DNA of 21,260 nt from a virus: IMG/VR virus record IMGVR_UViG_3300013132_000307, positions 1-21,260 of that record; one strand, given 5' to 3'. Of this stretch, positions 1 through 21,260 are shown one piece after another (position 1 is the stretch's first letter; each line of letters begins with the position of its first letter). The position numbers and the translations under genes were made by a program. The notes beneath the pieces were generated by a model. That model saw only the letters and a program-made list of their open reading frames with translations. It made no database searches and was not told the DNA's origin.

Positions 1-2660
1 CTTAATCTAGCTCCTCCTACAAAAACTTCTACATTATTTTGACTAGGAGCGAAATCCAAACTGACCTGACTAGTTGTCGCTGTAGTAACAATACGCTTGA
101 TTTCTTGACTGTCCTGATAATTTATGGTCTCACTTACTCCTAAATTAATCACTAAAGTATTTGATTTATGTTTAACAACCGCTCCAGTTCCTAGCGTTCC
201 TCTGCGTAATTTACTTAGAGTATTTCCAATTTTAGAAAAGTATTCTATTCTTTCCCCATTAATTTCAATAATTCCAGGAATGTTTAATTGCACATCTGGT
301 GCATCAAGAGCAGAACCATTTACTACTTCCAACGAAACATCGAATTGAGCTAAATCTTGTGCCAATCTTGTAGTTTTAGCTTTATTCAACCTCTTATAAT
401 GCATACGATTTAACATATCTTTAAATTGCATATATCCGTAACCTGTTGAAGTTTGCTTAGATCCGAAAAGGATAATATCTAGTACATCGGTAGTTAAAAC
501 AGGACTGCCTAAAACTATTTGTTGTAAATCACTATCTAAATAAAAATCAATTCCTGGAGTTAGCATTTTATTATTTTTAACAATCCATACAAAATCATCT
601 ACATTAGCTGGTTTAAATAACTTTAGTTTGCCACCTCTTAGGCTACTATATCGATAATATTCTGCTGTATCAATATCTAAATACGCAGTAGATTTGATAG
701 ATTCTTGTGTTCGAATTATTTCTAAAATATCGTGATTATAAAATGACACTATATCAACAATAGATCCTGCCGATGGAGCATTTGTAAATATAATACTATT
801 ACTAGAACCAGTGCTATCGATTATGTATTGGCTGTCCCCAGTGTTTGTTACAGATAAAATACTTCCTTCAGAATATAATAAAGAGTTAATGGTAATCGAG
901 AACCCTGTAAGATTAATAGTATAGTCAATACCAATTCCTAACTGTGTACCATCTAAATAAACTTTAACATCGGAAGGATTCACAGAGCCTGGAGGTTGTT
1001 GATACTTAACCATAGTAAATGTCAATTGATTGTTTGACAAAACAAAACACTGGGTAATTCCTGGATTTAAAATCTCTCCGTTCTTAATTACTAAAATATT
1101 ATTAGCTAAAGGTTCAGACATTCCGATAGGATTAGTTAAAGGAAATTGTAATGTACTTCCATCTACTGCTAATTGCTCTGACCTAACTATGCTAGCTGAA
1201 AAATTACCATCATTAGTAATCATATAAGTTATTATTGCATCTTGCGGTTGAGCTACTCCGAACCTTATTCCAACCTTGTAAATATCAGAATAGGAAGAAT
1301 CGGTTTCAAAAATCTCATAATTAACACTTTCCCCATTTACTAAAACTATATGTCCTAAGTTTTCAGAAAAAGGAGCATTGGTAATAAATTCAACAGTGCT
1401 ACCATCAGAAATAAAATAATCCAGAGCTAGTAAATTAGCAGAAGTATATCCCATTCCTATTACAGTTACAACTTCATTTAACGCAGGGGCTACTAAGAAA
1501 TGAATATCTTTTGTATACCAGTCAAATGTATAATGTAAAGATTGTTTTTTAATTAAATTTCCTACCTTAACAAATATTGCACTTAAGTTTTGTGGTAGTT
1601 GGTCTAACCTAAAATTGGTCCTTGTACCATCTGCAATGTAAGTTTTAAGGAAAATATTAGCAGAACTACTTGTAGACAACTGAAACACTTTGATAGCTAA
1701 TGCATCTACAATCTGTCCTGGAACTATTTCTTCTGGTGCATGACTAGATGTTGGAGTAATTAACCCATCACCATCAATATTGATATCTTCAGGATTAACT
1801 CCTGTAGCGGTAGTATAAGCTAAATTACCACCTTCTAACTGTGTGTCATAATCTTCTGCCTTAGGACTTATACTCCCGTCGCTGGTTGTTTTTCTAAAAA
1901 TAATTATGTCATCAACCTGTAACTCTAAAGGAGGATTACTTGTAGGATTAGGCAGTTCAAAACTATTATTAACTCCATTTCCAGTAATGGTCTGCATAAC
2001 AGCACTAACATTTGTTACAGGGTTTACAGTGCCAAAGTTAGGATCATCTAGTCGTATTTCTGTATATTCGTTTACTGACCCTACAATTAACCGTTTTAGA
2101 TAGACATTTATTTGTTCACCTACACCTGGAACATAATCAAATTCAAATGTTCCGTATGTACTATCATTAGGAATTACAAATATTTGATCTTCAAAGTTGT
2201 CATTCTCATCACCCCAGTTAGATTCTCCAAATAAATCACTATCAAATCCTTTAACTCCAACAAAATTAACTAGACCCTGAATGTTTACACCACCGTAGTC
2301 AATTCCTGTCATCAACTGTGCGTAATCTTTTCCTAACATTCCTAAATTAGGGTCATAATAATGCTTTATTCTATCTAATGCATTAAGATGCTCGAATCCT
2401 ATTTGATAGTTTATAATTATAGTATCATTTCTAGCAGGAGCAGTTTCTAAAGTTAAAATTCCATAATAACTTGTATAACCTTTTGTAGTTGTAGATCTCA
2501 CTGTAATAGAATAATCGTCTTTTAAAAGATCTAAATTATTGACTAAAACAGAATAAGTGTCACGCTGGACTCTAGGAGCATACCTTAACTGAAATTGTAA
2601 CTGACTACCTGTACCTATAAATGTTTCTGTATATTCTAATGTAGATCCTGTGTATTCTTC
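1..2660 (-). repeat. Degenerate beta-sandwich modules in the C-terminal part of the giant protein
   Basis: From about residue 3430 to the edge, a divergent unit recurs roughly every 75-115 residues. It starts with a small or Gly-rich turn and an aromatic strand (GTGSQLQFQL, GNGVNNSFELP, DGTRTNFRLD, DGSTVEFITNAP, DGSTLQFPLTNP, GSSNSIIFTNAP). Several continue with a V-x-V-x-x-(N/G)-G strand (IVLVNGE, ILVIKNGE, VKVYLDGTQ) and an APxxxDxIxI strand. Clear unit starts are at residues 3655 (G), 3772 (D), 3847 (D), 3928 (D) and near 4043. Repeats are divergent at DNA level. Such arrays usually form elongated appendages; that role is inferred. Confidence 0.55.
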
Positions 2661-5600
2661 CAACCTAGAAGTTCTATCAAATTTCATTGTTACTTTATTA
2701 GATCTCACCACTTCACTTTCAACCACAGCAGTTACCATAGCTACACTACCAGTTATAGATAATCCACCATCTAAAATAATTTTAGGAGCAGTGATATACC
2801 CAGATCCTTGATCTAATATCTGTATACGATTAACTCTGCCAGCTGAAATATAAGCATTCGCTTTAGCTGGTGTTTTACAACTACCTATTATTTTTACAAC
2901 AGGATTACTAATATATCCTGAACCTGAACTAACTATGTCTATCCTTTTTATTTTAAAACCGACATTATCTTTCCAATGGCGCCAAGGATAGGTTGACAAA
3001 GCAGAACTATAACTAGAATCATCATTAATATTAACATTAATTGTTTGAGAAACAAAATTGCTATCTATATAAGTCGGTAAATCAAAATCTGTTATTACGG
3101 TTTGACTGTTATCTAATTTATTATAACTACTTACATATTCTCTAATCTTAGTCCTATATGGTTTAACTTCTCTAATATAATCTTCAAAGTTTTCAAGATT
3201 GTCATTTTTATAGGTTACCTTTTGTTGCAACTCTCCTAAATTATGTTTAGCTTTTATAAAACTAGTTTTAACTATCCAATCGACAAAAGGTTGCTCATGC
3301 ATCACATATCTTAAACCACTAAAGAATAGTTTTAAATATTCAATATACAAATCATCTACAAAAATATTATTTTTGATAACACTTAGAATAACTTCAAGCT
3401 CTTTAATAGGAGAATAATCATAATATTGGCTATCAAACAATTGTGTATCAAAACCTATGACATTAGCAGAATAATCATATAAAGAACTTAGCAATTGTAT
3501 AGTTCCATTTTGTCTGCCGATAACATTATAATTTTTAGTATAGTCTGTTGTAAAACTATCATTAAATTTTTTCAATAATAACCATCCACCTGAACCTATA
3601 GATTCTACCTTAACAATACTGCCTAACTCAGCAGTTAAAGTGTATAATTCATTGGTGTTTTTTATTAAATGATCTATTTTTGTAAACTGATTATACTCGG
3701 TGTCATACCAATCAATATAAGTCCAAAAGTTGGAAACATCATATCCTTGACTTTGTGTTCTATTATAACTTTGAGTATTAGGTAAAAATTCATATATTGA
3801 CCAAATACCTTTAATAGTTGAATCTGTTTTCACAAGTACACTAAAATTCCTTGCTATTATTTTAGTGTCAAGAGCATAACCGTAGCCTTTATTAATAACT
3901 TCTACATCAACTACCTGGCCCGATTCATTGATAGTTGCACGAAGTTTAGCATCTTTACCGGAACCAGAAATTGAGAGATAAAACCTATGCTTGTATCCAT
4001 AACCCGAATCAACAATATTTGCTCCTATAATTTTACCATTTTCTAAAATAGGAGTAATAACAGCAGTTGATACCAAGGATGTACTAACAAACCTAAACTC
4101 ATCGACAGTTTCAATAACCTCGTCATACATTCCGGAAAAGGTACTAGGTACAGGGTCTTTTAAAAACAAATCTGATATATCGTAATCATCGGTAATAATC
4201 TTAGTTTTTAAAACAGAATTGGCACGCTCAACAAATTGCTTTAATGCTTCTACTCTATTAACAAACATAGTTTGTCTTGGTCTAGACAATATGCCATACT
4301 TTTTCTTTTCAGGCAGTGAAGGACTAGGAACTAGTCTGCCAAAACTGTCTTTACCTATAAGACTATCAAACCATTTTTGTTCAATTTGTGTAGGAATTAA
4401 GGTTTTTTCATATAAACTTAACAACTTCCATTGACTATGACTATTAGATTTTCTATATTGCTTATCCACTGTCCAATATTCAATGTTAAGATTAGTCAGA
4501 TTACTTTTTATGTACCTTGATAGATTAACTAAGGCAAAAGTATCTGATGAAGTAAAGGCTACACAAGGATATCCTTGTGCAACAGGATCACTTATCAACT
4601 TAGATACATCATTTGCGCTAAGTTGTCTATCTTGTAAATTAGGAATAATTGTAGGATTTTTTACCCAAAAATAGTAGATATTTTTAAAACTCTGGCTTAC
4701 TTTATCATAATACTGTCGAACACTATAACAATTATTACCATATTTAGAAGCTCCGCTGATACCTAACGACTGTCCTTTTTCAGTATTAGCTAAATTATCC
4801 CACTCTGAAGGTTTATACTTTGTTTCTACCCATTCATATATATCTATGCTAGCAGTTTCATATAGCTTGTTCCAATTAGACGCTCTGTATATTATATTAC
4901 CAACATTGTTTTCAAGAAACTTTGCTCTTGTTAAATCCCACCATAACATACCTACATAACTTTTATTCCAGGCCTGGCCTTGATCAACAATTACATCCTC
5001 GGTACCAATGTCATATGTTGCAGGATCGTAAAAAGTTTTAAATTTAATTTCTTGATCTGCTGGACCTGGAATTCTACCTTGACTAACATCAACAACATCA
5101 AGATAAGTTAATAGCTTTTGTTCGTAGGTATCATACAAATATATCTTCTTAAAATAATCAATTACAACCTTATCTGCTTCTTGATACTTTATCGACCAAC
5201 TAAATTTTCCTGGCTGTTTGTAGTAAGAAAACACTTTACCGGCAAACTTAGAATTTCCGTTAGACTCTCTCGGAGCACCTACTAATATGCTATTTGTCCC
5301 CACTCCGACAGCATAACCGTAGTTATCTTGTAAACCTGTATCTTGATTAGTTGTTAAACTTTGACCATATATAAAATTAGTATGATAACGATCAAAAATA
5401 TCAACTCTTCCTGAATCAATGTGCTTGTCGTTAAACCTTGTTGTATTGTTATCAAATGTCGTTATATCCTTATCAAAACTAACAAAATTATCTACATCAC
5501 CATTTTGGCTCAATACAACTAAGGTTTCATCATCATTCATAAACTGAAGATTATAACCAAAATATTCAAAAGATTCAGGATTGTGACTCTTTAGTTTTTG

Positions 5601-8600
5601 TTTAAAATCATAATACTCATCTAACATATAGATATCAACTTTACCGCTATCAGCTAAAGTTGAGTCATCTAAATTTGCACCAATAGCAATGTATTTTGCA
5701 TTGCCTGATACTGCTACACATTGTCCAAAGTTATCGTAACCAGATGATTGATCATTTATAACTTGTAAATTACTATACCCACCACTAGATTTTTCATAGA
5801 TATAAACTTTATCATTATTAGGATCACTGACGGCTAATATAGATGCATCATCAGCTATAGATAAACTATGGCCAAATTTTGAACTACCAGCTTCTATAAG
5901 AGTTTCTTCTAAAATCCAATTACTAGTATTAGTAAGCCCTGCTGTATAAACAAAAACTTTGTTGTTATTAACTGATGCGATTGCTGCTACATAATGATCT
6001 GAATCTTTAGCTATGACAATTTTAGATCCTAGATCAGAAACAGATAAGCTAGATCCACTGATTGTCTGCTTATAATTAAATATACCTAATAAACTATCCC
6101 TACTATATAAATGTACATATCTACTTGCATCATTTAATTGCTCTGCTATGGCTAACCAGTTACCATCTGGGCTAATAGCTAAATTGAACCCAAAATCTGC
6201 ACTATTACTATTTGTACTTACTAGAGTAAATTGTTGCTTCCAGGCCGAGTCAGCGATGTTTTTGAAGAATATTGTAACCTGGTTAGTGTCACCTATCGCA
6301 GCAATATTATCTAACTTGCTAACAGTAATCGACCTACCAAACATTACATTATCCTCTATAATGTTTAAATGGTCGATATACATATTGTTATAAATTTTTT
6401 CGTGCTCTAATATAACGTGCTTACCAGTCCCATCATCGTCGACCCACAGCAGTTCATTACTTTTTATTCTTTTTGGAATATAAGGATTAATGTTGTCAAT
6501 TGAATCTACTCTTACTTCGCTAAAATAAAAAGGAACACAATTTGAACTATCTCCAACTATATCTTTATCCCAGTCAGAAATTGTTTTTTTAATATAAATT
6601 TTTCTATTAACTACACTTGAAATCTTGTAAAAACCTTTAATTAGATTAATATTACTAAGTCCAATGATTTCACCAACCTTAACATTAGGCAAAATGTCAA
6701 CTGTTAATACTAAATTAGAATTTGAATATTCAATCAATTCTATTCTAAATTGATGTTTAGTTAAACGATAAACTGACCAGTTCTTAGGTGGTGCAAGAAA
6801 TGCAGTCCATACATAATCACCTTCTGTATAATTTGCCATATCTTCATTTAATATTTGGTCTAAATTATCAACGTAAGACCTTACATCAGTATATCTAACA
6901 TACCCAGCAGATCTTAGAAAATCTTTAGCTGACCCTGTTAACCATATATTGTTAGTATATCCTACCGGTTTAATAGGAACATCGGATTTTTTTATACGAT
7001 ATATAAAGTCTGGCTCATAGCTTATATTTTCTGTCAAATACACAGGTTGAGGATTTATTTGTATATTTTTTTCATCTAAATTAAACTCAACTTCATTATA
7101 AGTATCAGTGGATCCATAACTTCCTACCCGGACTGCCCATTCTTCATTAAACGTTAGGCTCTCTTGATCGTCAGCACTTAGTACATCAAAAAGTTTATTA
7201 AGAACATTTTGAGTTCCTTTTTCAGATATCATACCTTGATAAAATTTATATTGACTAATATCGTCATTAATAATATTTTCTAAATATTGTCTTTTTTGAT
7301 ATCCTATTAAGTGTTGTGCTAATTTTTGCTGACTAATATCAAAATTATCGCTGTCTAAATCATAAAAATCTGTAAACTGTTCTGCTTTATAATCCCAGTT
7401 TGGAATCATTCTGCTTTCTGGTTTATCACTTAAAATGATCCAATCATCGTTATTAAGGATTTCAGTTCCAGGTAAAAATTGTTTAGCACTGTAATAAAAA
7501 TCTTTATAAAATACTATGTCACCTAGATTGTAATCAGTCCACGGTTCCCAACTTTCAATCTTAGCCTGATCAAATATGAAACCTGGAATATTAAACCCTC
7601 CGTTCCAATTTGTTGAAATGTATCCCAATAATTTAACTTTATCGTGCTTATAGCCAGCAGGTACATCATAGATAATATCATTAAACAATGTTATATTATC
7701 TAATAAAATAACGTGCTCTTTCTGCACTAACCTTAAATTAGCTCCATAAATTCCGTGATTCGTCTTTTCAGGGCTAATGCTGAATAAGTTTCCTTCTCTA
7801 TAAGTATTTGTTAAAGTGGATGATAACAGCTCTCCATCCACTCTAAAGATGTTATATCCATATAAAGTATCAACTATATTATCAACAACAGAGTACTCAC
7901 TTGACACTGTAAGCGTTAATGCCGCTGGACTTAAACTTAAAGCACTACCTTCTTTCCAGTTTTGAGTAGTCCAAAACGCAAATTCCTTAGCACTAGTTTC
8001 CCAATTTTCAATTGACTTTAAATTAGAGTTATAATCTTCAAAAACAAAGCCTTGATCTTGAAGATAAGATCCATAACCTAAAATAAAATCAACTACCTCC
8101 TGTATAGTTCTATATTTTGTTCCGTAACTTACAATCTTTTCATTCTTTAAATCAAAATCTTTTCTTATAAAAATATCTCTGCCACCAATAACAGGAAGTT
8201 TAGATAACTTTGTAAAATAACTGGATTCAAAATTATTACTGGCTGTATGGGTAACATTTACTCTGTAAAATAGATTATTATTGCGAACAATTAGACCTGA
8301 AGAATATCTATTACCTGACTCCCAATCAATAAAACTTTCCGAGATTCCTCCTATATTAATTTCTTTACCAGGTCTATCCCATTCATAATATCTAAAATAA
8401 GGTTGATCTCTATTATAACCTCTTATGTCAAACCCGTCAGCAAATTTAGTTATAATTATACCGCTATAATCCAACCTTCTTATAGGACTGCTCACATTAA
8501 GGAAAATCTTATAATTTTCTTCAGGAACAAAGATACCCATAGTACTGTTTGGGCTTTTACTATCAAGGATAATTTTTAACTTTTCTTTGCTAGTAAATCC

Positions 8601-11600
8601 GCCTAATCTGCTGGCTATTTTGTTTTGTAAAGATTTTAATTCTTCTTTATACCTATTAAGAAATATCTTTAATTCCGTAGAAAGGCTATCTATAACATAG
8701 TTCACTAATCCACTTGTATAAATCCGTTCAGTATCATTTACAGTAGATGGAAAAACAAAACTATCTAATCTTACACGCAGATCAGTATCAGTAAAAATTA
8801 ATTGACCAACTAAGTTTCTGCTTATTCTACTTCTATCAAAACATAAATTTATAACTTTACAAGGATTCATCAATATTGCTGCTTGTATTAATGAAAAAGC
8901 ATAGTAGCTACTTCGTCTCCAGGCTGTCTCTACAGGGCCTTGATCTCCAAAAACATAAAATCCTTGTTCAACTATTGCAGTCATATTCTTTAAAAAACCT
9001 GATACAAAAGGACTTTTTAACTTACCTTCTGCATCAACAGGCTTTCCATACTGCAAACAACTTTTTGCAAATTTACTATTTACTTTAATAACTTTATTAG
9101 GCTCTCTAATAATTCCATCTTTAATATCATCCCATAAAATGAAATTATCACTTGTATAAGGTAAAGGACCATAAACTTCTTGCCACCACTTAGGCTCTAT
9201 GCTAAATCCTAAACATTCCCAAGGATGTGTATGTGGCCGATCAGTATCTAAAATATATCTATATATTCCTCTCCAGAAAGCAGGACTATCAGTATCATCT
9301 GTTAAACTTGCTCCTCTATAATTGTAAGTCCAATGATTAGAATTATCCCAAAACACTTGTTCAGAAAAATCATTTTGTATGTTTGAAGTCCATTCAAAAA
9401 AGAATTTTGAAAGTATTTCTTCTTGCTCTGTCTTGCTGTATAAATTAGTTCTACTTTGTCCCGGAATATAATCAAATATATCAAATATATTCGAATCATA
9501 CTTTACCTTAATATTATTAAAAATACGTTTTTCAAGTTCAAGCAATACATCATCTCTATAATCATTGAATCCCACTGTTATGCTTCCATCGTGCCCTTGC
9601 ACAACAGTTATAGGTTCTAAATAACTATCATCTACATATTTTTTTGGCTCAAATAGAGGAAAAATTCCTAGCTTTGTAGGAGTTGGTGGGCAAAAACTTC
9701 CGTCAGTAGTTTCATATTCATATACTTCTATTAAATCATCATCGACTAAATCTGTAAGAATTTCAAAATAGTCATTATTAAAAATATAATCTCGACCGTG
9801 CAAAAGTTGGGTATTATTTCTATAAATTAAAACTGATCTATTTGACAATTGATCTAAATTAAAGGCTGTACTCAATGGATAAGCCTTAGTTCTATAATCT
9901 AGTACACGATACTCAAAACGCTTATTTGCTGTATAAGCAAACATATCACTTAGAAAGTATGCATCTGTTTTTGGTCGATCCTTGTTAAGTTCATTTAAAA
10001 TTAAATCAGTTAGTTGCTTAGGTTCTGTTTGAACAGCTATCTCAGAACTTTTAACTAAAAAAGATGTTTTGAATTTTCCGTATTCATTTTTAGCCTTATT
10101 CAATGCTGCCATAACATTGAACTCTTTAGACCCTAAACTATATAATGCTAAATTAAGAGGACCGCTATGTTGTATAAATCTAGTCCCTAAATGACTGACT
10201 GGGCCAAGATCTCTTATATTACCATACCCTGGATAACTGCCTTGAAAAGAGTCTAAATTATCAACAATACTGTTTACATGATCAATTACTTCACCTAAGG
10301 TAAAATTTTTAATGTTTCGATTTAATGGATTATTTTGAAAATTTAAAGGCAGTTCATAGTGCCCGTTATTGTTTTTAGACTGTTTAGAATATAATTTCAA
10401 AGTTATCAGGTCTGAATTATCAACAGCTTTAGTTAAAAAAACTTCTTTTCTGACTGCACCTTGTTTTATAGTAAAAGATGTTGGTTTTAACTTAACACTG
10501 TTTACATAAACTTTTACCTTTAAATCTGAAAGATTTAAATGCTCATCAAACACATCTATAGGAAACCCTGCTGTTATTCCATCAATATTGTGGTTCCTAA
10601 AAATCTTTACTATTGGTTGTGCATTTTCTAAATTATTTTTAATCCAACTATTTTCATATGTCCAATCAGACAAACTTATAATCTTCTTAAGATACCCTAT
10701 ATCTAACTGCTTTGTATAAACCTGAGATATCTCTTTATAATAAAAACTATCTTGTAATAAATCAAAACTAAAAACAATATCCCCAACATTATTAATATTT
10801 TGATAACTTAGGCTAAATCCTAGTTCACTATCAGCTACTCCTGTTCCTATCTTGTAAGAAAATACCTTAGTTCCTTTGAAATTTGTTCCATCATAAACAG
10901 AAGAATCGGTAAAACTTATACCATCTTTATCAAACACATCGAAATAAGGAGTTTGATTTATTGCTGTTTTAGCCTGTCCTAACTGCCAAGCAGATCCATT
11001 ATACCAATATGCTAGTCCTTGATTGCCAGTTATGGTATCCGATTCATTAATTTTTATTTCTTCATATCTACCTTGATTAATTAACACTGTTTCATATGCT
11101 AACGGTACTGAATCATCTGTTTCTAATAGATTAATTATTCTGCGAAATCCTGAAAATACTTCAAGACTATGTACACCATCTCCGGTCGCATAAATGTCAA
11201 CGACATTTTGCAGCAAGCTATCTGTGTATAATTGCAATGTCTTTTGATCAATAACTTTTACATAATAAATCTGTCTATGAACTAATCCTTGTAATTGTAT
11301 ATTATTATTGCTAAGATAGATAACCCTATCTCCATTAATCAATCCGTGATCAATTTCACACTTTATGGTGTCAGTTGTAATGTTAACACTGCCAGTAGAA
11401 TCACTTGGGGCATTGGCACTAAAATCTATGTTTCTTCCAGGAACTGTTACAGATACAAATTCAACCTTGAATATTCTACCATTGACCAGTCTATCAGGAT
11501 CTGCTGTAAATAACACACGCATACCATCAACTAAGTTGATCCCATCAATATTATAACCTAAACTTCCTACAATAGTAGAAAAAACATCTGTAGTAATATT

Positions 11601-12944
11601 GTCTATTAGATCTACATTTTTTTTAGCTACGTGTCCAAAATTATATAATTTTAAATTAGCACTAAATTCAATAATAGGACGAGTTGCTCTAGCTGTTTGA
11701 TCTAATTCTAAATTAGATCCTCTAAATTCTGCTGTTTTCTTAATCACATCTTGATGATACCAACGATTAGTCCTAGACCAAGCATTTCGATCTTTACTAC
11801 TTCTGTTTACTACAATATAATCTTTACTTTTTGGATAATTTGTAATAGTGCTAAATGGAACCTGATCAAATGGATCATTATCAAACAATAAAGCCTGCTC
11901 TTCTGTAAAATTAGATAAAATTTCTAAATCATTAAAGTTTATTAATTTTATTGCTTCACCTACTCCTTCTACTAACCAAAATCCAGTTTTATAAATTTCT
12001 GGTTGAGTGTTACCAATAAAATCTAACTTCATTCCATTGCTTAAACTTAGACCATTAGGAAGAACATAATTCCTTTTTCCTAAAATATCTTTTTCTACAT
12101 CTAGAAAAGTATTTTCTTCAATGTCTTTAATTAGAATTATACCCCCAGCATTATTATCTTTTTCGCTTAGATAGTAAAGCTGATCTGGAGCGTCTAACGG
12201 CACTGTAAAAATCATTTGTCCGGACTCTACTGAATTACTGCTGACTATATTAGTGTCAGTGGTATATTGGTCAAGAGGACCTTCTGTTCTAATAGTCTTA
12301 ATACTAAATGGATTGTTAGGACTAGTAATTTCAAACCTATATGTTTGTCCCCTGTAAAGAATTAAAGTAGGATTGCGTGTTAAAGCATCAGGAGTAAACA
12401 AATAGGCAAAACTATCACCTTGATCTTCTATAACAACTGTATAAGTGCTGTCTATGTCTAATTGTTGTCCTGCGATAGTTATCGGATCTGGACCATAAGG
12501 TAACCAATAATATTGTTGAAAATTTACAAACTTATCCCAATCAATATTAGGATTCCAACTATAAAACTCCTGTTTGTTTAAACGTTCATGATTATCAGTT
12601 ATTCCGTTTAGTATGGTTATTTGATTTATATGATCAATATAATCTTTAAAAAATTTAACATTTCCAAACTGATCTTCATAAACTAAAGAAGGCTCAAATT
12701 GATAATCCTGTCGTAATTTATCTGTGGCTGCTAAAAAAATGTCATCAGATTTAACACTTTTAGCATTTTGCCTTCCAATAAATCCGCTTATCTTTTTAAC
12801 AGTACCTGGTTGTGTTAATTGATCTAGTGTAGATGCTAAAAACTTTTTATTAGCATCTGTTCTATAAAATCTAGGCAGCAAATCTGCTGTTTTCCTATTT
12901 TCACGACCTGTTATCGGAACTGGCGATTCGTTATCTAAAGGCAT
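1..12944 (-). CDS. Giant virion structural (probable baseplate/tail) protein, at least 4314 residues, C-terminus beyond window
   Basis: One reading frame runs from the ATG at 12944-12942 to the window edge without a stop; widely spaced landmarks (residues 147, 1242, 1901, 2201, 2571, 4249) all fall in the same frame. It starts 2 bases after the gp6 stop, behind an AGGA ribosome-binding site. Visible parts in order: a beta-rich N-terminus with YYWLPYGP near residue 145; a W-rich block (HPWE, KWW, YGPLPYT) at 1240-1262; two carbohydrate-binding-like segments at 1541-1585 and 1797-1840; GMISEKGT near 1905, then EEWAVRVG; seven FG-GAP-like blades at 2200-2580; glycine-rich GxGY modules at 2970-3035 and 3330-3400; repeated beta modules from about 3440 to the edge, including GERIEY and RRGTLGTG (4220-4251). 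No signal peptide, transmembrane segment or catalytic motif is apparent. Its place after gp6 is that of T4 gene 7 (1032 residues), so an outer-wedge role, possibly with receptor contact, is inferred. I recognise the class (very long structural proteins of marine T4-like phages) but no exact family. Confidence 0.9.
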   Translation of the reverse strand, partial: MPLDNESPVPITGRENRKTADLLPRFYRTDANKKFLASTLDQLTQPGTVKKISGFIGRQNAKSVKSDDIFLAATDKLRQDYQFEPSLVYEDQFGNVKFFKDYIDHINQITILNGITDNHERLNKQEFYSWNPNIDWDKFVNFQQYYWLPYGPDPITIAGQQLDIDSTYTVVIEDQGDSFAYLFTPDALTRNPTLILYRGQTYRFEITSPNNPFSIKTIRTEGPLDQYTTDTNIVSSNSVESGQMIFTVPLDAPDQLYYLSEKDNNAGGIILIKDIEENTFLDVEKDILGKRNYVLPNGLSLSNGMKLDFIGNTQPEIYKTGFWLVEGVGEAIKLINFNDLEILSNFTEEQALLFDNDPFDQVPFSTITNYPKSKDYIVVNRSSKDRNAWSRTNRWYHQDVIKKTAEFRGSNLELDQTARATRPIIEFSANLKLYNFGHVAKKNVDLIDNITTDVFSTIVGSLGYNIDGINLVDGMRVLFTADPDRLVNGRIFKVEFVSVTVPGRNIDFSANAPSDSTGSVNITTDTIKCEIDHGLINGDRVIYLSNNNIQLQGLVHRQIYYVKVIDQKTLQLYTDSLLQNVVDIYATGDGVHSLEVFSGFRRIINLLETDDSVPLAYETVLINQGRYEEIKINESDTITGNQGLAYWYNGSAWQLGQAKTAINQTPYFDVFDKDGISFTDSSVYDGTNFKGTKVFSYKIGTGVADSELGFSLSYQNINNVGDIVFSFDLLQDSFYYKEISQVYTKQLDIGYLKKIISLSDWTYENSWIKNNLENAQPIVKIFRNHNIDGITAGFPIDVFDEHLNLSDLKVKVYVNSVKLKPTSFTIKQGAVRKEVFLTKAVDNSDLITLKLYSKQSKNNNGHYELPLNFQNNPLNRNIKNFTLGEVIDHVNSIVDNLDSFQGSYPGYGNIRDLGPVSHLGTRFIQHSGPLNLALYSLGSKEFNVMAALNKAKNEYGKFKTSFLVKSSEIAVQTEPKQLTDLILNELNKDRPKTDAYFLSDMFAYTANKRFEYRVLDYRTKAYPLSTAFNLDQLSNRSVLIYRNNTQLLHGRDYIFNNDYFEILTDLVDDDLIEVYEYETTDGSFCPPTPTKLGIFPLFEPKKYVDDSYLEPITVVQGHDGSITVGFNDYRDDVLLELEKRIFNNIKVKYDSNIFDIFDYIPGQSRTNLYSKTEQEEILSKFFFEWTSNIQNDFSEQVFWDNSNHWTYNYRGASLTDDTDSPAFWRGIYRYILDTDRPHTHPWECLGFSIEPKWWQEVYGPLPYTSDNFILWDDIKDGIIREPNKVIKVNSKFAKSCLQYGKPVDAEGKLKSPFVSGFLKNMTAIVEQGFYVFGDQGPVETAWRRSSYYAFSLIQAAILMNPCKVINLCFDRSRISRNLVGQLIFTDTDLRVRLDSFVFPSTVNDTERIYTSGLVNYVIDSLSTELKIFLNRYKEELKSLQNKIASRLGGFTSKEKLKIILDSKSPNSTMGIFVPEENYKIFLNVSSPIRRLDYSGIIITKFADGFDIRGYNRDQPYFRYYEWDRPGKEINIGGISESFIDWESGNRYSSGLIVRNNNLFYRVNVTHTASNNFESSYFTKLSKLPVIGGRDIFIRKDFDLKNEKIVSYGTKYRTIQEVVDFILGYGSYLQDQGFVFEDYNSNLKSIENWETSAKEFAFWTTQNWKEGSALSLSPAALTLTVSSEYSVVDNIVDTLYGYNIFRVDGELLSSTLTNTYREGNLFSISPEKTNHGIYGANLRLVQKEHVILLDNITLFNDIIYDVPAGYKHDKVKLLGYISTNWNGGFNIPGFIFDQAKIESWEPWTDYNLGDIVFYKDFYYSAKQFLPGTEILNNDDWIILSDKPESRMIPNWDYKAEQFTDFYDLDSDNFDISQQKLAQHLIGYQKRQYLENIINDDISQYKFYQGMISEKGTQNVLNKLFDVLSADDQESLTFNEEWAVRVGSYGSTDTYNEVEFNLDEKNIQINPQPVYLTENISYEPDFIYRIKKSDVPIKPVGYTNNIWLTGSAKDFLRSAGYVRYTDVRSYVDNLDQILNEDMANYTEGDYVWTAFLAPPKNWSVYRLTKHQFRIELIEYSNSNLVLTVDILPNVKVGEIIGLSNINLIKGFYKISSVVNRKIYIKKTISDWDKDIVGDSSNCVPFYFSEVRVDSIDNINPYIPKRIKSNELLWVDDDGTGKHVILEHEKIYNNMYIDHLNIIEDNVMFGRSITVSKLDNIAAIGDTNQVTIFFKNIADSAWKQQFTLVSTNSNSADFGFNLAISPDGNWLAIAEQLNDASRYVHLYSRDSLLGIFNYKQTISGSSLSVSDLGSKIVIAKDSDHYVAAIASVNNNKVFVYTAGLTNTSNWILEETLIEAGSSKFGHSLSIADDASILAVSDPNNDKVYIYEKSSGGYSNLQVINDQSSGYDNFGQCVAVSGNAKYIAIGANLDDSTLADSGKVDIYMLDEYYDFKQKLKSHNPESFEYFGYNLQFMNDDETLVVLSQNGDVDNFVSFDKDITTFDNNTTRFNDKHIDSGRVDIFDRYHTNFIYGQSLTTNQDTGLQDNYGYAVGVGTNSILVGAPRESNGNSKFAGKVFSYYKQPGKFSWSIKYQEADKVVIDYFKKIYLYDTYEQKLLTYLDVVDVSQGRIPGPADQEIKFKTFYDPATYDIGTEDVIVDQGQAWNKSYVGMLWWDLTRAKFLENNVGNIIYRASNWNKLYETASIDIYEWVETKYKPSEWDNLANTEKGQSLGISGASKYGNNCYSVRQYYDKVSQSFKNIYYFWVKNPTIIPNLQDRQLSANDVSKLISDPVAQGYPCVAFTSSDTFALVNLSRYIKSNLTNLNIEYWTVDKQYRKSNSHSQWKLLSLYEKTLIPTQIEQKWFDSLIGKDSFGRLVPSPSLPEKKKYGILSRPRQTMFVNRVEALKQFVERANSVLKTKIITDDYDISDLFLKDPVPSTFSGMYDEVIETVDEFRFVSTSLVSTAVITPILENGKIIGANIVDSGYGYKHRFYLSISGSGKDAKLRATINESGQVVDVEVINKGYGYALDTKIIARNFSVLVKTDSTIKGIWSIYEFLPNTQSYNRTQSQGYDVSNFWTYIDWYDTEYNQFTKIDHLIKNTNELYTLTAELGSIVKVESIGSGGWLLLKKFNDSFTTDYTKNYNVIGRQNGTIQLLSSLYDYSANVIGFDTQLFDSQYYDYSPIKELEVILSVIKNNIFVDDLYIEYLKLFFSGLRYVMHEQPFVDWIVKTSFIKAKHNLGELQQKVTYKNDNLENFEDYIREVKPYRTKIREYVSSYNKLDNSQTVITDFDLPTYIDSNFVSQTINVNINDDSSYSSALSTYPWRHWKDNVGFKIKRIDIVSSGSGYISNPVVKIIGSCKTPAKANAYISAGRVNRIQILDQGSGYITAPKIILDGGLSITGSVAMVTAVVESEVVRSNKVTMKFDRTSRLEEYTGSTLEYTETFIGTGSQLQFQLRYAPRVQRDTYSVLVNNLDLLKDDYSITVRSTTTKGYTSYYGILTLETAPARNDTIIINYQIGFEHLNALDRIKHYYDPNLGMLGKDYAQLMTGIDYGGVNIQGLVNFVGVKGFDSDLFGESNWGDENDNFEDQIFVIPNDSTYGTFEFDYVPGVGEQINVYLKRLIVGSVNEYTEIRLDDPNFGTVNPVTNVSAVMQTITGNGVNNSFELPNPTSNPPLELQVDDIIIFRKTTSDGSISPKAEDYDTQLEGGNLAYTTATGVNPEDINIDGDGLITPTSSHAPEEIVPGQIVDALAIKVFQLSTSSSANIFLKTYIADGTRTNFRLDQLPQNLSAIFVKVGNLIKKQSLHYTFDWYTKDIHFLVAPALNEVVTVIGMGYTSANLLALDYFISDGSTVEFITNAPFSENLGHIVLVNGESVNYEIFETDSSYSDIYKVGIRFGVAQPQDAIITYMITNDGNFSASIVRSEQLAVDGSTLQFPLTNPIGMSEPLANNILVIKNGEILNPGITQCFVLSNNQLTFTMVKYQQPPGSVNPSDVKVYLDGTQLGIGIDYTINLTGFSITINSLLYSEGSILSVTNTGDSQYIIDSTGSSNSIIFTNAPSAGSIVDIVSFYNHDILEIIRTQESIKSTAYLDIDTAEYYRYSSLRGGKLKLFKPANVDDFVWIVKNNKMLTPGIDFYLDSDLQQIVLGSPVLTTDVLDIILFGSKQTSTGYGYMQFKDMLNRMHYKRLNKAKTTRLAQDLAQFDVSLEVVNGSALDAPDVQLNIPGIIEINGERIEYFSKIGNTLSKLRRGTLGTGAVVKHKSNTLVINLGVSETINYQDSQEIKRIVTTATTSQVSLDFAPSQNNVEVFVGGARL
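2740..4035 (-). repeat. Two paired glycine-rich GxGY modules in the giant protein
   Basis: Two related blocks flank this stretch. Block one (residues about 2970-3035) reads IVDSGYGY, then ISGSGKDAKL, GQVVDVEV and NKGYGYALDT. Block two (about 3330-3400) reads IVSSGSGYISNPVVKIIG, then AGRVNRIQIL and DQGSGYITAPKIIL. Each holds two copies of V-x-x-G-x-G-Y followed by a short beta strand, with a small-residue-rich strand and a G-x-V-x-x-I hinge between them. Such tandem units are familiar in phage tail structural proteins. The roughly 300 residues between the blocks carry none and look like mixed helix and strand. Confidence 0.6.
5205..6344 (-). other. Seven FG-GAP-like repeats (predicted beta-propeller) inside the giant protein
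   Basis: Seven blade starts with an aromatic or Leu followed by Gly can be read: MFGRS (F2202), DFGFN (2251), DLGSK (2305), KFGHS (2357), NFGQC (2406), YFGYN (2462) and NYGYA (2542). Each is followed by a hydrophobic strand such as AISPDGNWLAI, AVSGNAKYIAIG or ILVGAPRE, and most close with a (K/R)V(F/Y/D)(V/I)Y strand. Spacing is about 50-80 residues. This is the pattern of FG-GAP/integrin-alpha beta-propeller repeats, and seven is the number in an integrin-type propeller. In that family the propeller is an adhesion platform; a role here in receptor binding or inter-subunit contact is inferred. Confidence 0.75.
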
Positions 12945-12946
12945 TC

Positions 12947-15900
12947 TTAATTTCCTGGTGAGCTAATAATACTTTGTTGGATAGTATAAGTTGAGGACGA
13001 GCTTATCGATCCTGTAGACTTTATTCTACTAGCGGTAACTGCTGAGATAATTTCAATATCATCAATAGTTGCTCCGTTAACAAATATTTGGTCTTTTTCT
13101 GCTTTTATTTCTAAAAGACTGCCAAATGTAAGATTGCTTTTTTTAGGCACTATGACAAAGTTTACAATGCTGGTGGCTAATCTATTCATTACAAACGTAG
13201 CTAATTCTGTAAAATAAAAATTATCTCCAAAGTCCCAATTGTCAATGGTAAAAAATTCATTTATGGCACCAATTACTCTGCTTTTAACATCATTATCACT
13301 AATAACAATTTCAGTATTTTTAACAACTTTGAAAGTGGCCTGTAAGTCTATTGTGGCATTACTTCCAAACAAAATCTTATATCTAGCTGGATGATATATA
13401 ACCTCATCACTTATACTTTTAATTAAATTAAGATTACTGGATAGCAAATTGTACAAAGAATCAGAGCTAGGAGGTAACGGCAGTATTGACCTAGTTCCGT
13501 CCAAATATTCTCTAAATTCTTTATCATATTGTTTGGTTAAAATGAAAATGTCGATAATATTAGTAATACCAGGATCTATCCTTGTTTCATAATCAGCATT
13601 ATGGATATATTGAAATTTTAAATTATTCCTTCCTCGATAGCACTTATAATTAAGACTTACAAGTAGCTCAGCTGTTGTTTTATTAAAACGCTTAACTACA
13701 TCTGTATCTATAAAATAAAAATATTGATTATCATTAAAAATACTTAAATCGGAAATAAGCGATTCACTCTCTTTGATTAAAACTGTAAGGGAAGAATTGT
13801 CAAAATATCTATAATCCTCTTGATTATCTTCTATAGTGTAAAGTTCTTCTACTATGTAATATGATTGTAGATCAGTGCTATTAGTTGCTATGATATTGGA
13901 AAATATTTCTGGATTATCTACAACTCCGTCGTCATCTGAATCAGCAAAACTAATTTGAATTTTTTTAGTGTCTAAATATCCATCTAATCCTTTATACTCT
14001 TCAACTATTTCTAAATCTTGATCGAATGTAAAACTATTTAAAGTTGTATTATCTCTATTAATGCTTAAAAGCTTGATCTTATCTTTTTCAATAGTATTAG
14101 TTCTTGTATCATAGATTTTATCACTTGAATCATAATAAAAACGAATTTGTTTATCACTTTCAAAAATATATCGTAAAAATCTACAACTAACGGTGTAATA
14201 TTCTGAATCTGAGATAAAGCTAACTAACCAGCTACTATCTGCTTTTTCATTTGTATTATAACCCGACTGCGCTAGACTAAAATTATCTACTAAATTTAAG
14301 TTTACCTCAAAAATAATAGCCCAAGAGCTTGTAGCTATATCATATCTTAAACCAAATGGCTTATGTGCATATATTAAATCAATCACTGTACTAATCACAT
14401 TAGTGTTTAATGTAGTTTTAAAAGGCGCAATTATTTGAGCTAACTCAGCAGTATTAGGTATAATATCATTTAACTTTATTGTTCCAAATCCCGAAGTTAA
14501 TATTCCTGAGCCACCATTGGTTCCATCTCCTGCAACAGCAATCACTTTAGCGAAAAGATATTTTTGAACTCCGTATTGATTATTCGTTGTTGTAAGACTG
14601 TTATTATCTAATGTATTAAAATAGTAACTTCCCGGAGCTTTAAACTTAAGCAATGCTCCTGGTAGTATAGACTTTAATAGACTACTAGTATATGTCCCAA
14701 CTTTTAGAGCCTGTGCAGAAAAGCTACTTTTAAAATATCCAGTGGATAAATTTGTTTCTTCAGTTATACTAGTCCAAAATGTATCGGTTGGGATTATTTT
14801 TGTAAATTTGTCATAATAGTAATCTCGTAAATTATTCCTAGATAGATAGTCATAGAGTTGATTATAAATTATACTCTCTATATCAGTTTTACTAGTAAAC
14901 TTAAATTGAAAACTATCAACAAATTCTTCTTTATATATTACACCGTCATCAGCAAATAAATTCGTTTTGCTATATTTTCCAGTAGGATCTACTAAATCAA
15001 AATAACGACTTATCCCACTGCTAGATCTATTAACGGCTTTAACCTTAGCAATTTGTTGACTTACACTAAATGGGCTAAGGCTATAATCTTCCGCAGTAAT
15101 CATTCTATTTTGCGTGTAATAAGTTGCAGGAGCTCTTTGCTTTATGTTCACTGAACTCTCAGTAGGACTGCTATTGTTTACACTAGTTACTAAACTAAGA
15201 GTAATAAGAACACTTTCTGGTTGATTAAAATTACTTACATAAGGAATTTCAATGCTTATGTTTCTCATATCTCTAGGATTAATTGTATAACTTATACCTT
15301 CGCTGGTTCTATAATACACTCTAAAACTACCTAAAGGCAGATTTCCAAAAACACCATCACTAAACTGTAATGTTACCTTATCATTAGCACGAGTAATTGC
15401 TGTATAAAAATTCCTTATAGATTTTTCTAAACTATTGTAAATGACATTATTACCTTCAATACTGCTTAACTTTTGCCAATATTCTGATTCAGCACCTTGA
15501 CTACTCAATCTATAAAGCCATATGTCATCGTTGTTAATATTGGCTGCATCAATATCTAAAGTTTCATTTGTAGAAGGCTGAGTAAAATTAAATGTACCTT
15601 GATTTAATTGTCCTTGCTTAAAATACATATAAAACCCAGTGTTAGAACTGGCATTTCCTTTTCCATCATTTCTATATAAAAAAGCTAACCTATTACCACG
15701 ATTAGGAGGCTCTTCGTATATTTCTTCTTTATTTTTAAAAGTAGAACTAACTATTTCAAATGTCATTGTTCTACCATCAACACTTTTATCAAAGCTGTAA
15801 ATAGGTACATCTAAATTACTACTTTGAAACCTATATTGCTCAGAAGGAATACCATAAATTGTTTTCTTATCTTCCGGATTTCCAAATTGTCTAGTGGCAG

Positions 15901-16393
15901 GAAGTGCTGCATTTAGTATTTTAATAAACTGGTCATACCAACTTGAATTACTAGGATCATTCCATGTAATAACCTGACCAGCTAAATTTCGTCCGTTGCT
16001 ATCTAAAACATTTTGGGTTGTTTGTAAACTAGTAATTTTAAGCAGACCACTGCCAGCAATATTACGTTTGGCATTATAGCTTAATAGTCTAGCTAATCTA
16101 AGAACACTTTCCCTGCGCTCTGCTAACTCTAAAAAGTTATCTCTACTATTAAGGTCGATACGATAGGCTATGCTTTGCCCTAAAAAAGCCATCAAATCAA
16201 TTAAGGCTAGATATTCACTACTTTCAATATAATCGTTGAAATCTTCAGGATAGTTTTCTCTAATATAGGCTATCATTACCCTGCGAAGATTTTCAAAATC
16301 ATAACTCTGAAAATCTGCATTACGAAAACTTTGATATATTCTACGCCAATCTTCAGCAACTAATAATCTATTTTGTCTATCGGTTATTGACAT
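12947..16393 (-). CDS. 6: Baseplate wedge protein, gp6-like (enlarged, 1148 residues)
   Basis: Structural protein of the inner baseplate wedge. In T4, gp6 dimers clamp the wedges into the ring that surrounds the hub. The N-terminal 120 residues are strongly gp6-like: VAEDWRRIYQSFRNADF, YPEDFNDYIESSEYLALIDL, RIDLNSRDNFLELAERRESV and LRLARLLSYNAKRN. The middle holds YYTQNRMITAEDY (about 420-435) and SSSGISRY..DPTGKYS (about 455-475). The C-terminal 130 residues, with helix-rich INEFFTIDNWDFGDNFYFTEL, fit the baseplate-J-like end of gp6. At 1148 residues it is far longer than T4 gp6 (660); the extra length lies between about 500 and 1000. Residues 818-829 form a DxDxDGxxDxxE loop. The ATG at 16393 has TGGA a few bases upstream in a 45-bp gap, making this start secure. 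Confidence 0.93.
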   Translation of the reverse strand: MSITDRQNRLLVAEDWRRIYQSFRNADFQSYDFENLRRVMIAYIRENYPEDFNDYIESSEYLALIDLMAFLGQSIAYRIDLNSRDNFLELAERRESVLRLARLLSYNAKRNIAGSGLLKITSLQTTQNVLDSNGRNLAGQVITWNDPSNSSWYDQFIKILNAALPATRQFGNPEDKKTIYGIPSEQYRFQSSNLDVPIYSFDKSVDGRTMTFEIVSSTFKNKEEIYEEPPNRGNRLAFLYRNDGKGNASSNTGFYMYFKQGQLNQGTFNFTQPSTNETLDIDAANINNDDIWLYRLSSQGAESEYWQKLSSIEGNNVIYNSLEKSIRNFYTAITRANDKVTLQFSDGVFGNLPLGSFRVYYRTSEGISYTINPRDMRNISIEIPYVSNFNQPESVLITLSLVTSVNNSSPTESSVNIKQRAPATYYTQNRMITAEDYSLSPFSVSQQIAKVKAVNRSSSGISRYFDLVDPTGKYSKTNLFADDGVIYKEEFVDSFQFKFTSKTDIESIIYNQLYDYLSRNNLRDYYYDKFTKIIPTDTFWTSITEETNLSTGYFKSSFSAQALKVGTYTSSLLKSILPGALLKFKAPGSYYFNTLDNNSLTTTNNQYGVQKYLFAKVIAVAGDGTNGGSGILTSGFGTIKLNDIIPNTAELAQIIAPFKTTLNTNVISTVIDLIYAHKPFGLRYDIATSSWAIIFEVNLNLVDNFSLAQSGYNTNEKADSSWLVSFISDSEYYTVSCRFLRYIFESDKQIRFYYDSSDKIYDTRTNTIEKDKIKLLSINRDNTTLNSFTFDQDLEIVEEYKGLDGYLDTKKIQISFADSDDDGVVDNPEIFSNIIATNSTDLQSYYIVEELYTIEDNQEDYRYFDNSSLTVLIKESESLISDLSIFNDNQYFYFIDTDVVKRFNKTTAELLVSLNYKCYRGRNNLKFQYIHNADYETRIDPGITNIIDIFILTKQYDKEFREYLDGTRSILPLPPSSDSLYNLLSSNLNLIKSISDEVIYHPARYKILFGSNATIDLQATFKVVKNTEIVISDNDVKSRVIGAINEFFTIDNWDFGDNFYFTELATFVMNRLATSIVNFVIVPKKSNLTFGSLLEIKAEKDQIFVNGATIDDIEIISAVTASRIKSTGSISSSSTYTIQQSIISSPGN
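12953..12956 (-). promoter_or_regulatory. Ribosome-binding site of the giant structural gene
   Basis: On the minus strand AGGA lies 8 bases before the ATG at 12944, inside the last codons of gp6. It supports this ATG as the true start and suggests translational coupling to gp6, whose TAA stop ends 2 bases before the start codon. Confidence 0.6.
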
Positions 16394-16438: not shown

Positions 16439-16891
16439 TTAACCTATAACTATACCGTTTTCTTGGTCAAATCTAAGCTGCAAAGCTTCTTGTATATTAT
16501 AAGGATAATAGGTCAACACACATTCAATTTGTATTCCCGACTCGTAAGTAGTCACAATGACCTGATCTGCACGAGTACGAGGATCATAATTTATAATCTG
16601 TTCTACGTTACTGATCACAGCAGCCTTCAAATCTTCAGTTAAAGGCTCAAACAATATATCCCATATAATAGTACCAAACTCTGGTTGTTCTAGTCTTTCA
16701 CCCATACGTATATGAAAATTATTAATTAAATCTTGTTTTATTAATTGTAAATCATACAGGCTAAAACTGTTCCCATCTGTTGAAACAGTGCTAAAACCTC
16801 TATAAGTTTTAGATCCTAATGCTGGTTTAGTTTTAGCATTAGTTAAAGTAATTTTATCATATAATTTGCTACTTGCTGTCATATGCCCCAT
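16439..16891 (-). CDS. 25: Baseplate wedge / sheath initiator protein, gp25-like
   Basis: gp25 sits in the inner wedge with gp6 and nucleates the tail sheath in contractile injection systems. The 150-residue product carries the family signature at residues 63-83: MGERLEQPEFGTIIWDILFEP, where R-x-x-P-E/D-F-G is the conserved gp25 core. A helix follows (LTEDLKAAVISNVEQIINYDPR), then the beta strands of the gp25/GPW fold. Length compares with 132 residues in T4. The start is uncertain: the first ATG (16891) overlaps gp5 by 13 bases and has GAAGGG only 2 bases upstream, which is too close. The ATG at codon 4 (16882) makes an ATGA overlap with the gp5 stop, like the hub/gp5 junction, and puts the N-terminus (SSKLYDKI) where T4 gp25 begins. 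It is at least as likely and gives 147 residues. Confidence 0.92.
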   Translation of the reverse strand: MGHMTASSKLYDKITLTNAKTKPALGSKTYRGFSTVSTDGNSFSLYDLQLIKQDLINNFHIRMGERLEQPEFGTIIWDILFEPLTEDLKAAVISNVEQIINYDPRTRADQVIVTTYESGIQIECVLTYYPYNIQEALQLRFDQENGIVIG

Positions 16892-19194: not shown

Positions 19195-21260
19195 AGGTCT
19201 GTATCTCCAAGTTCTTGTGCATAAGTTTCTTGTTCATAAGTTGGTTCCAATGATTCTTGCCACTCCACTTCACTACTTCCTAATCCTGTAAATTCTGCAT
19301 TATCTGCTTCTTCTAACGGTGTTGCAAGTTCTATACCTTGATCATCATCCCTAGGAGTAGAAATCTTAGGTACAACATTCTTAGCTTCAGGAACACTAGG
19401 ATTATCTTGATTAGGTACTCTAACTAACTGTAGTTCTTGCGTAAATTTTCCTCTTGCAAAACTACTATTAATTTGTAATACTCTAAACAACCCACTGAAT
19501 TGAAATTGTGTTTCTTGATTTCCAAAATCGTATAATGAGTTAAACTCTGGAATATAATAACTAGGAGTTAGATCGACTGGATTTCTAAAGTACACTGCAA
19601 TATAAACTTCCCCATTCTCATAACTCATTTCACCATCCTGATTAACATTTTGTCTTTCTGTAAATCCAGCACGATAATTCCCAGTGCCACTGCTAGTAAT
19701 ATAAAAAGGATCTCCTAATATTGACATAGTAAGATTTAACATATCATATCCTTTAGTGGCTAAATCATGAAATTGCCTAGCTGCTAAAGTAGCTGGATCA
19801 TCTGCTTGAAAGGCACCCCCTTGATTAGCAGTAGATGTTTTTGTTAATACAGGTTTGATTGTATCAGGAGCATTATGACTAGCAGGACTGGCACCACTAC
19901 CTGCTGGATCATCTGGCTCTCCGATCTTTTCTGCGTTAGAACCTCCAGTAGACTGAGCTACACCTTGTTGCCCTTCGGAATTTTTCCCCATATCAGCAGT
20001 TAATGCTCTGTAAAAACCGTTTTTAAACTCTAATCTTAAATCAATAATGTCTAAATTTTTTCCTGTATAATTGTAATAGTATTTTTTAACTACTTCATTC
20101 CATTTGTTTTCAACACCGGGATTTTTACTATTAGCTGTGGCATTCTTCTGTGCATCTACAAGATATTCTTCTACTCTATAAACTATTTTTTTAGGACAAT
20201 ACCCAGTTATAGGATCTTCTGCACCTTTGAAAAACGTCTTACTATCTACTCTCCACCAACGTATTTGTCCTTGTGCAGTCCAATTTTCTTTCTTTAACGC
20301 CCATTTTACATAATCACTGGTAATAATTACCTGATTTATAATATCTGTAATTAACTGTCCTTGATCAAAGGTATATAAACCGTTATTAGAATTAACTTTC
20401 ATTTTGCCGCGCTTATAGACTCCATCTTCATAGACAAAGTTATCTTCTGCAAAACCAGTTTCTCCTTTATTATAGTTGTCAAATCCTAATTTTGCTGCTC
20501 CGATTCTATTCAATGACTCATCATCTCTGCTTTCATCTGGAAATACAATATCAATCTCGTCGTAATAAAGAACATCCTTCTTTTTAACACGATTTTTGTA
20601 GTATTGATTAACCACGTGCTTAAGACTTTTTTCACTTTTCCTTAATAATTGCTCTATAGTTTTCGGTACGTTATCGTCTACAATTATCTGAGTGTCAGTT
20701 TTCATTTCATTGTAAGTATCACTGAACCCGCCTTCATTAAATGGATATGCCTCAACATCATAAAAGCAACCTTTACGAGTGACACTCATATTAATTTCAC
20801 GAATTTTTAAAGGTATAAACTTTTTACTGAGTTTATCTTCAATCATTAAATTATCTGGATCATAATGTCCTGTAAACTTTATTGTTAACAACATCGGAAC
20901 ATCAGCATAATTTAAATACTTTTGTTCAAATGCTGCTGCTTGTAATGCTTGAAAAAATAAACCCATGCTATAAGGTTCAAAAACCTGAAAACTTATTGTT
21001 AAAGCATTAGTATTTCCTGTATTTTCATTTAGACCAGCCATACCTGTAATTTTTAAATTGTCAAGATAAAAATCAAGTTTACCAGCCGCTGTAGTAATTA
21101 AATCTTCTTCTTTGGCAGCACCTGCACTAGCTAGGATAATTTTTCCAACTCTAGTATTATCAATGTAAGTATTACCATTATACTCTGTTTTACTTAACAC
21201 ACTAAGAGTAAAATGATAATTGCATACACTATACTCAAACAATGCATTAGGCAATATAGC
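19191..21260 (-). CDS. Baseplate hub-type structural protein (gp27 position), N-terminus beyond window
   Basis: At least 689 residues are visible. The frame stays open through GCT ATA TTG at the window edge, and the TTG at 21254 is probably internal, because the following residues (NALFEYSVCNYHFTLSVL) read like a conserved strand just after a true N-terminus. An N-terminal beta-rich region (to about 180) includes TISFQVFEPYSMGLFFQAL and DVPMLLTIKFTGHYD. A Gly/Ser/Pro/Asp-rich linker spans about 427-490. The C-terminal part has ILGDPFYITSSGTGNYR (about 510) and FSGLFRVLQINSSFARGKFT (about 585-603), followed by QELQLVRVPNQ, then an acidic tail. This arrangement resembles hub-associated structural proteins of T4-like marine phages. 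Its position directly before gp5, sharing an ATGA overlap, suggests it plays the gp27 role of holding the spike. No clear T4 gp27 sequence match is visible, so no symbol is given. Confidence 0.75.
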   Translation of the reverse strand, partial: AILPNALFEYSVCNYHFTLSVLSKTEYNGNTYIDNTRVGKIILASAGAAKEEDLITTAAGKLDFYLDNLKITGMAGLNENTGNTNALTISFQVFEPYSMGLFFQALQAAAFEQKYLNYADVPMLLTIKFTGHYDPDNLMIEDKLSKKFIPLKIREINMSVTRKGCFYDVEAYPFNEGGFSDTYNEMKTDTQIIVDDNVPKTIEQLLRKSEKSLKHVVNQYYKNRVKKKDVLYYDEIDIVFPDESRDDESLNRIGAAKLGFDNYNKGETGFAEDNFVYEDGVYKRGKMKVNSNNGLYTFDQGQLITDIINQVIITSDYVKWALKKENWTAQGQIRWWRVDSKTFFKGAEDPITGYCPKKIVYRVEEYLVDAQKNATANSKNPGVENKWNEVVKKYYYNYTGKNLDIIDLRLEFKNGFYRALTADMGKNSEGQQGVAQSTGGSNAEKIGEPDDPAGSGASPASHNAPDTIKPVLTKTSTANQGGAFQADDPATLAARQFHDLATKGYDMLNLTMSILGDPFYITSSGTGNYRAGFTERQNVNQDGEMSYENGEVYIAVYFRNPVDLTPSYYIPEFNSLYDFGNQETQFQFSGLFRVLQINSSFARGKFTQELQLVRVPNQDNPSVPEAKNVVPKISTPRDDDQGIELATPLEEADNAEFTGLGSSEVEWQESLEPTYEQETYAQELGDTDL

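Follow-up and report, generated by a model that had tools for sequence, protein, structure and literature searches.

The 21,260-base window analyzed here, an entire IMG/VR virus record and not an excerpt from a longer one, carries on its minus strand a giant open reading frame (ORF) that, judged from its sequence, is one gene for one protein of ~4,400 residues. With a probability of roughly three in four, this protein is a gp7-position baseplate-wedge protein enlarged by inserted beta-domains, in a jumbo-type myovirus related to PA5oct, Atu_ph07, and RaK2. Giants at this locus have already been deposited for many jumbo phages and cyanophages; therefore, size alone is not new. The protein belongs to a family that is on record for cultured jumbo phages; what novelty it has is modest and lies solely in its domain composition. 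The giant ORF and its likely ribosome binding site are located as follows:

3..12944, minus strand: giant virion structural ORF, 4,314 codons in the window and ~4,404 when complete; 490 kDa as seen; match to PHROG_10938 at 1,034.7 bits
12953..12956, minus strand: AGGA, putative ribosome binding site of the giant ORF, 9–12 bases upstream of the ATG

In the ORF listing, the frame starts with an ATG at 12944 and stays open for 4,314 codons to the window edge. A stop-free run of this length would arise by chance with p ~10^-168, given 31% GC and the 8.6% stop codons expected for the strand composition, and the remaining five frames over the same stretch contain 236–701 stops. The stop codon of gp6 lies two bases before the ATG of the giant ORF. 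Use of an alternative genetic code was rejected, as translation table 11 keeps the frame open in all homologues used.

A scan of IMG/VR yielded 332 stretches that encode relatives of the giant, from which the best 79 loci were kept. A complete, uninterrupted giant ORF of 4,298–5,609 codons is present in 45 of these 79 loci, a count that includes some near-identical loci and leaves out L036. The latter has a stop at codon 3,680, six bases before the contig end (21022 of 21028), which is probably a contig-end error. The closest relative, L026, comes from a separate assembly, shares 81% identity with the window protein across its full 4,314 residues, and encodes a protein with a predicted mass of 500 kDa. 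Its ORF is complete at 4,404 codons, and therefore ~90 codons are missing from the ORF of the window. A preliminary description of this DNA had stated that the end of the ORF is not reached; this is true of the window, where the contig ends, but the ORF does end in L026. Between the window and L026, dN is 0.12 and dS ~1.7 over the whole length (dN/dS ~0.07). Low dN is seen in all 300-codon blocks, with the highest value at residues 2101–2400, and therefore indicates one continuous protein under strong purifying selection. The uninterrupted minus-strand ORF of at least 4,314 codons claimed in the preliminary description is thus confirmed by the ORF listing, stop statistics, dN/dS, and homologues. 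Likewise, a frameshift, or the patchwork of frames against which that description had argued, is excluded by the low dN in every block and by independent assemblies that are open end to end.

The remainder of the window encodes the following proteins:

12947..16393, minus strand: gp6-type baseplate wedge protein, 1,148 aa; PHROG_10646 (2e-288) and PHROG_219 (6e-14)
16439..16891, minus strand: gp25-type baseplate wedge or sheath initiator protein, 150 aa; PF04965 and PHROG_261
16879..19194, minus strand: gp5-type hub/spike protein, 771 aa; PHROG_13211 (4e-51), with PF22178 Gp5_trimer_C and DUF2345 below Pfam cut-offs
19191..21260, minus strand: virion structural protein, from its position a probable hub component; PHROG_11190; cut by the contig edge

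The gene order in the window is gp5-like, gp25, gp6, and giant, and in L026 tail-fibre genes then come downstream. The place of the giant gene, directly downstream of the gp6-type wedge gene, matches the order in T4 (gp6-gp7) and in P2 (J-I). T4 gp7, at the comparable locus, has 1,032 residues, as the preliminary description correctly gave. In XM1, the T4 gp7 orthologue is gp17, a protein of 242 residues that is reported to build the core bundle together with two gp6-type chains (PMC10457771); proteins at the gp7 position thus differ widely in size.

The match of the giant to PHROG_10938, a family annotated as 'virion structural protein', extends in five stretches over most of the chain. Searches of NCBIfam, and of the PDB with the full protein sequence, returned no match. 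Only distant relatives, with ~25–31% identity over the longer matches and mostly from jumbo myoviruses, were found by tblastn against cultured phages. The homologous giants of cultured phages are:

PA5oct gp355: 3,857 aa, directly after gp6; seen by ESI-MS/MS according to the record note
Atu_ph07 gp180: 4,449 aa, directly after gp6
Phosso XYS97451: 4,555 aa, directly after gp6
RaK2 ORF070w: 3,326 aa, directly after gp6
CBB CBB_236: 3,340 aa, directly after gp6
Vibrio 2.275 homologue: 3,771 aa; the upstream neighbor is a large ORF without gp6 annotation
Salicola phage SCTP-2 homologue: 3,807 aa; the upstream neighbor is a large ORF without gp6 annotation

CBB_236 was identified in purified virions by mass spectrometry (21 unique peptides, coverage 7.72%; PMC5259590). 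With CBB_236 and PA5oct gp355 both virion components, the earlier assignment of the giant as a structural protein is supported. Because identity is low, the window clade forms a lineage separate from the cultured members of PHROG_10938. Giant-carrying metagenomic contigs of 270–365 kb occur among the homologues and, together with the named relatives, suggest that the window derives from a jumbo phage. In the literature on giant phage ORFs, we found no paper on this family. The SCTP-2 ORF that adjoins the giant at the gp6 position (L006 21272–30562) encodes 3,096 residues, and both wedge proteins may be enlarged in this phage. In Klebsiella phage K64-1 (NC_027399, ~52700–59900), the giant homologue is annotated as many small hypothetical proteins, perhaps through over-annotation or frameshifts from sequencing, given that a single ORF is present in its relative RaK2.

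Giants are also found at the equivalent locus of cyanophages:

P-HM1 gp7: 4,446 aa, just after gp6; annotated as gp7, baseplate wedge initiator
S-RIM8 'gp7': 6,395 aa, just after gp6; annotated as gp7
S-MbCM6 giant: 7,022 aa, just after gp6
P-SSM7 giant: 7,124 aa, just after gp6

Several domains can be located along the chain of the window protein:

12111..12464, minus strand: cupredoxin-like beta-sandwich, residues 161–278 (AlphaFold and VIA-align)
8232..8324, minus strand: CBM5/12 (chitin-binding type 3) module, residues 1541–1571 (Pfam PF02839, at the gathering score)
7440..7550, minus strand: second CBM5/12-like sequence (WEPWTDYNLGDIVFYKDFYYSA...W), residues 1799–1835 (pattern match)
5187..6398, minus strand: seven-bladed FG-GAP beta-propeller, integrin-alpha-like, residues 2183–2586 (Pfam, AlphaFold, and VIA-align)
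3852..4064, minus strand: GxGY repeat module, residues 2961–3031 (BLASTP match to the 7,022-aa protein of S-MbCM6; motif positions)
2691..2954, minus strand: GxGY repeat module, residues 3331–3418 (BLASTP, 40% identity to the S-MbCM6 giant; motif positions)

AlphaFold models covered residues 1–1130, predicted to be mostly beta-structure (mean pLDDT 71.5), and residues 1600–2760 (mean pLDDT 71.8, ~90 in the propeller). In structure searches with these two regions, the only standouts are the cupredoxin-like domain, the propeller, and a 76-residue match of residues 502–598 to ubiquitin-activating enzymes (Z 9.5). Residues 161–278 align with 2dv6_A at a VIA-align Z of up to 10.8 (rmsd 2.6, 99 residues). 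In the alignment, the copper-ligand residues (His, Cys, His, Met) are replaced in the window, where NPFSIKT and YYLSEKDNNAGG are found, and no relative with the domain has the Cys/His/Met ligands. Therefore, residues 161–278 have a cupredoxin-like fold and do not form a copper protein. Similar 'beta-sandwich' proteins are present in BFVD in cyanophages and giant viruses. The CBM5/12 module (PF02839) was found in all ten giant-family members scanned (10/10); the second CBM5/12-like sequence is missing in distant relatives according to the alignment. The GxGY modules are repeated many times in the S-MbCM6 giant and constitute its main detectable sequence kinship with the window protein.

The propeller scores above the Pfam cut-off for FG-GAP_2 (PF14312), contains seven repeats, and aligns with 9t5z_A at a VIA-align Z of 34.1 (rmsd 3.1, 337 residues). 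A motif search found no DxDxDG calcium loops in residues 2183–2586. The lack of this motif leaves intact the assignment to the FG-GAP fold, but not a placement in the calcium-binding integrin group. The propeller segment is the most variable part of the giant, with 541 residues in the window (2060–2600) and up to ~1,440 in L037 and L066, and it evolves fast, as it includes the highest dN against L026. No paper joining FG-GAP with a phage baseplate was found in the open-access literature.

Two conserved segments bear on the kinship of the giant with T4 gp7 and P2 gpI:

12765..12887, minus strand: conserved N-terminal LLPRFYR..NKKFL..TLDQL, residues 20–60, conserved across relatives; candidate gp7/gpI core-bundle helix
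7170..7319, minus strand: conserved helical segment with the KGT motif, residues 1876–1925 (alignment); candidate gp7/gpI trifurcation segment

For residues 20–60, helices are predicted at 19–22 and 30–44 (pLDDT ~40), and the resemblance to the N-termini of gpI and cyanophage gp7 makes this segment a candidate N-terminal core-bundle helix. Further along, helices are predicted with low confidence at residues 1870–1922 (pLDDT mostly <50). In hhalign, the segment around residue 1909 places MISEKGTQNVLNKLFDVLSAD on FYSTKGIEASYKFLFKVLYNE of T4 gp7, in the expected register and at a non-significant E of 0.25. Comparison of four conserved segments with T4 gp7 and cyanophage gp7 profiles by hhalign gave nothing above the reversed-profile control; a control comparison of cyanophage gp7 with T4 gp7 failed too, and therefore the method is insufficiently sensitive here. 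A PDB sequence search with the KGT-segment profile gave no match. A KGT-core HMM was built from segments of T4 gp7, cyanophage gp7, and P2 gpI, without any member of the giant family. Of the 28 family members giving a match to this HMM, 22 have the best one at the conserved KGT column, among them the distant proteins of SCTP-2, PA5oct, Vibrio, and Phosso, whereas matches to reversed sequences are scattered. The scores are weak (best 4.5 bits vs. 4.4 for the reversed control), and the family members, being related, do not count as independent. T4 gp7 is absent from the structure matches for residues 1–1130 and 1600–2760, an absence that does not exclude kinship. In the window protein, LLPRFYR..NKKFL..TLDQL lies at residues 20–45 and KGT at 1909; the spacing differs from that in P-HM1 and S-MbCM6, which suggests that the gp7 core is split by insertions of different size. 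Gene order and the weak KGT helix motif are suggestive of descent of the giant from gp7, for which sequence profiles alone give no proof. Frame, domains, and gene order support the view, put forward in the preliminary description, of one continuous multidomain polypeptide at the gp7 position.

The giant might instead not be homologous to gp7. It could have replaced gp7 at the locus, or a small gp7 core could lie elsewhere while the giant acts as a peripheral scaffold or as an anchor of a fibre network. Such an origin would agree with the lack of a significant sequence match to gp7 and with database labels for the family that go no further than 'virion structural protein'. Moreover, pelagi- and cyanomyophages are reported to lack T4 gp7, which the VrlC protein has 'substituted' (PMC7029224); a replacement of gp7 has thus been proposed. 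However, the giant occupies the gp7 position beside gp6 in the jumbo phages examined, and the giants have one conserved site at which a KGT segment recurs in the expected register; we consider a non-gp7 origin rather unlikely.

A lower likelihood is given to proteolytic processing of the chain into several virion proteins during assembly. T4 gp7 is not known to undergo processing. Nothing direct speaks for such cleavage in the giant, although the low peptide coverage of CBB_236 would be compatible with it. Against it, every complete homologue keeps all domains in a single frame, the chain shows even selection throughout, and no report of fragments was found. Finally, the contig is a fragment that ends inside the giant ORF, and an assembly or sequencing artefact could in principle have joined several genes. 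The 81%-identical assembly, many more distant assemblies, and cultured phage genomes have an equivalent uninterrupted arrangement, which refutes an assembly chimera and makes an artefact of any kind exceedingly improbable.

If the giant is an enlarged gp7-type wedge protein, its short conserved helices (residues 20–60 and 1876–1925) would be bundled with a dimer of gp6 into the core of the wedge, as happens with gp7 in T4 and its homologue in XM1. By analogy with these two systems, each of the six wedges would consist of the giant's helices and two gp6 chains, and the giant would probably be present in six copies per virion. The remaining ~4,000 residues, mostly beta-domains both inserted and appended, would project from the wedge, possibly as the outer baseplate and fibre-like parts envisaged in the preliminary description. 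These projecting domains may provide a scaffold and an attachment or carbohydrate-binding surface; the strongest candidates for attachment are the variable propeller and the CBM modules, with other fibres or host envelope glycans as their potential partners. A more far-reaching and decidedly speculative idea, which we think doubtful, is that a gp7-type core split by ~1,850 inserted residues, the integrin-like propeller, and lectin-type modules form an adhesive baseplate surface, joining host recognition and contraction triggering in one ~500 kDa chain.

Proteins of 3,300–7,100 residues are common at the gp7 locus of jumbo phages and cyanophages, and the records and papers examined mostly label them just 'virion structural protein'. 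The anatomy of the giant offers a testable picture of how the baseplates of large phages may be enlarged, through insertions into a wedge core that is itself small and conserved. Two features deserve attention: a gp7 core that is possibly split, and a propeller of integrin-like type.

Among known systems, the integrin alpha-chain beta-propeller resembles the window domain in its seven FG-GAP blades. The window propeller differs in being a single domain within a phage chain, in its 15% identity, and in being without DxDxDG calcium loops, and the fold common to both says nothing on function. The cyanophage giants share with the window a single giant ORF at the equivalent locus, GxGY modules, and the KGT motif. 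They show no end-to-end homology to the window protein: only modules match by BLASTP, with a weaker match across the propeller segment. Their N-terminal core is recognizably LPxF..F..YY, with KGT following ~180 (P-HM1) or 690 (S-MbCM6) residues on. T4 gp7, XM1 gp17, and P2 gpI are like the giant in their position after gp6 and, more tentatively, in a candidate KGT helix motif whose register corresponds, to which P2 gpI adds an N-terminal LLP-type segment. Unlike T4 gp7, the giant is four times longer, has no significant sequence match to it, and carries beta-domains that are not comparable by sequence. The closest counterparts are the PHROG_10938 giants of PA5oct, Atu_ph07, Phosso, RaK2, and CBB. 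The window clade has the FG-GAP propeller segment, of which PA5oct, RaK2, and Vibrio 2.275 have a short version or none. Nevertheless, the PHROG_10938 giants are homologous to the window protein (23–28% identity over ~3,000 residues for those aligned), occupy the same post-gp6 locus, have 3,326–4,555 residues, and are virion proteins where tested (CBB_236 and PA5oct gp355).
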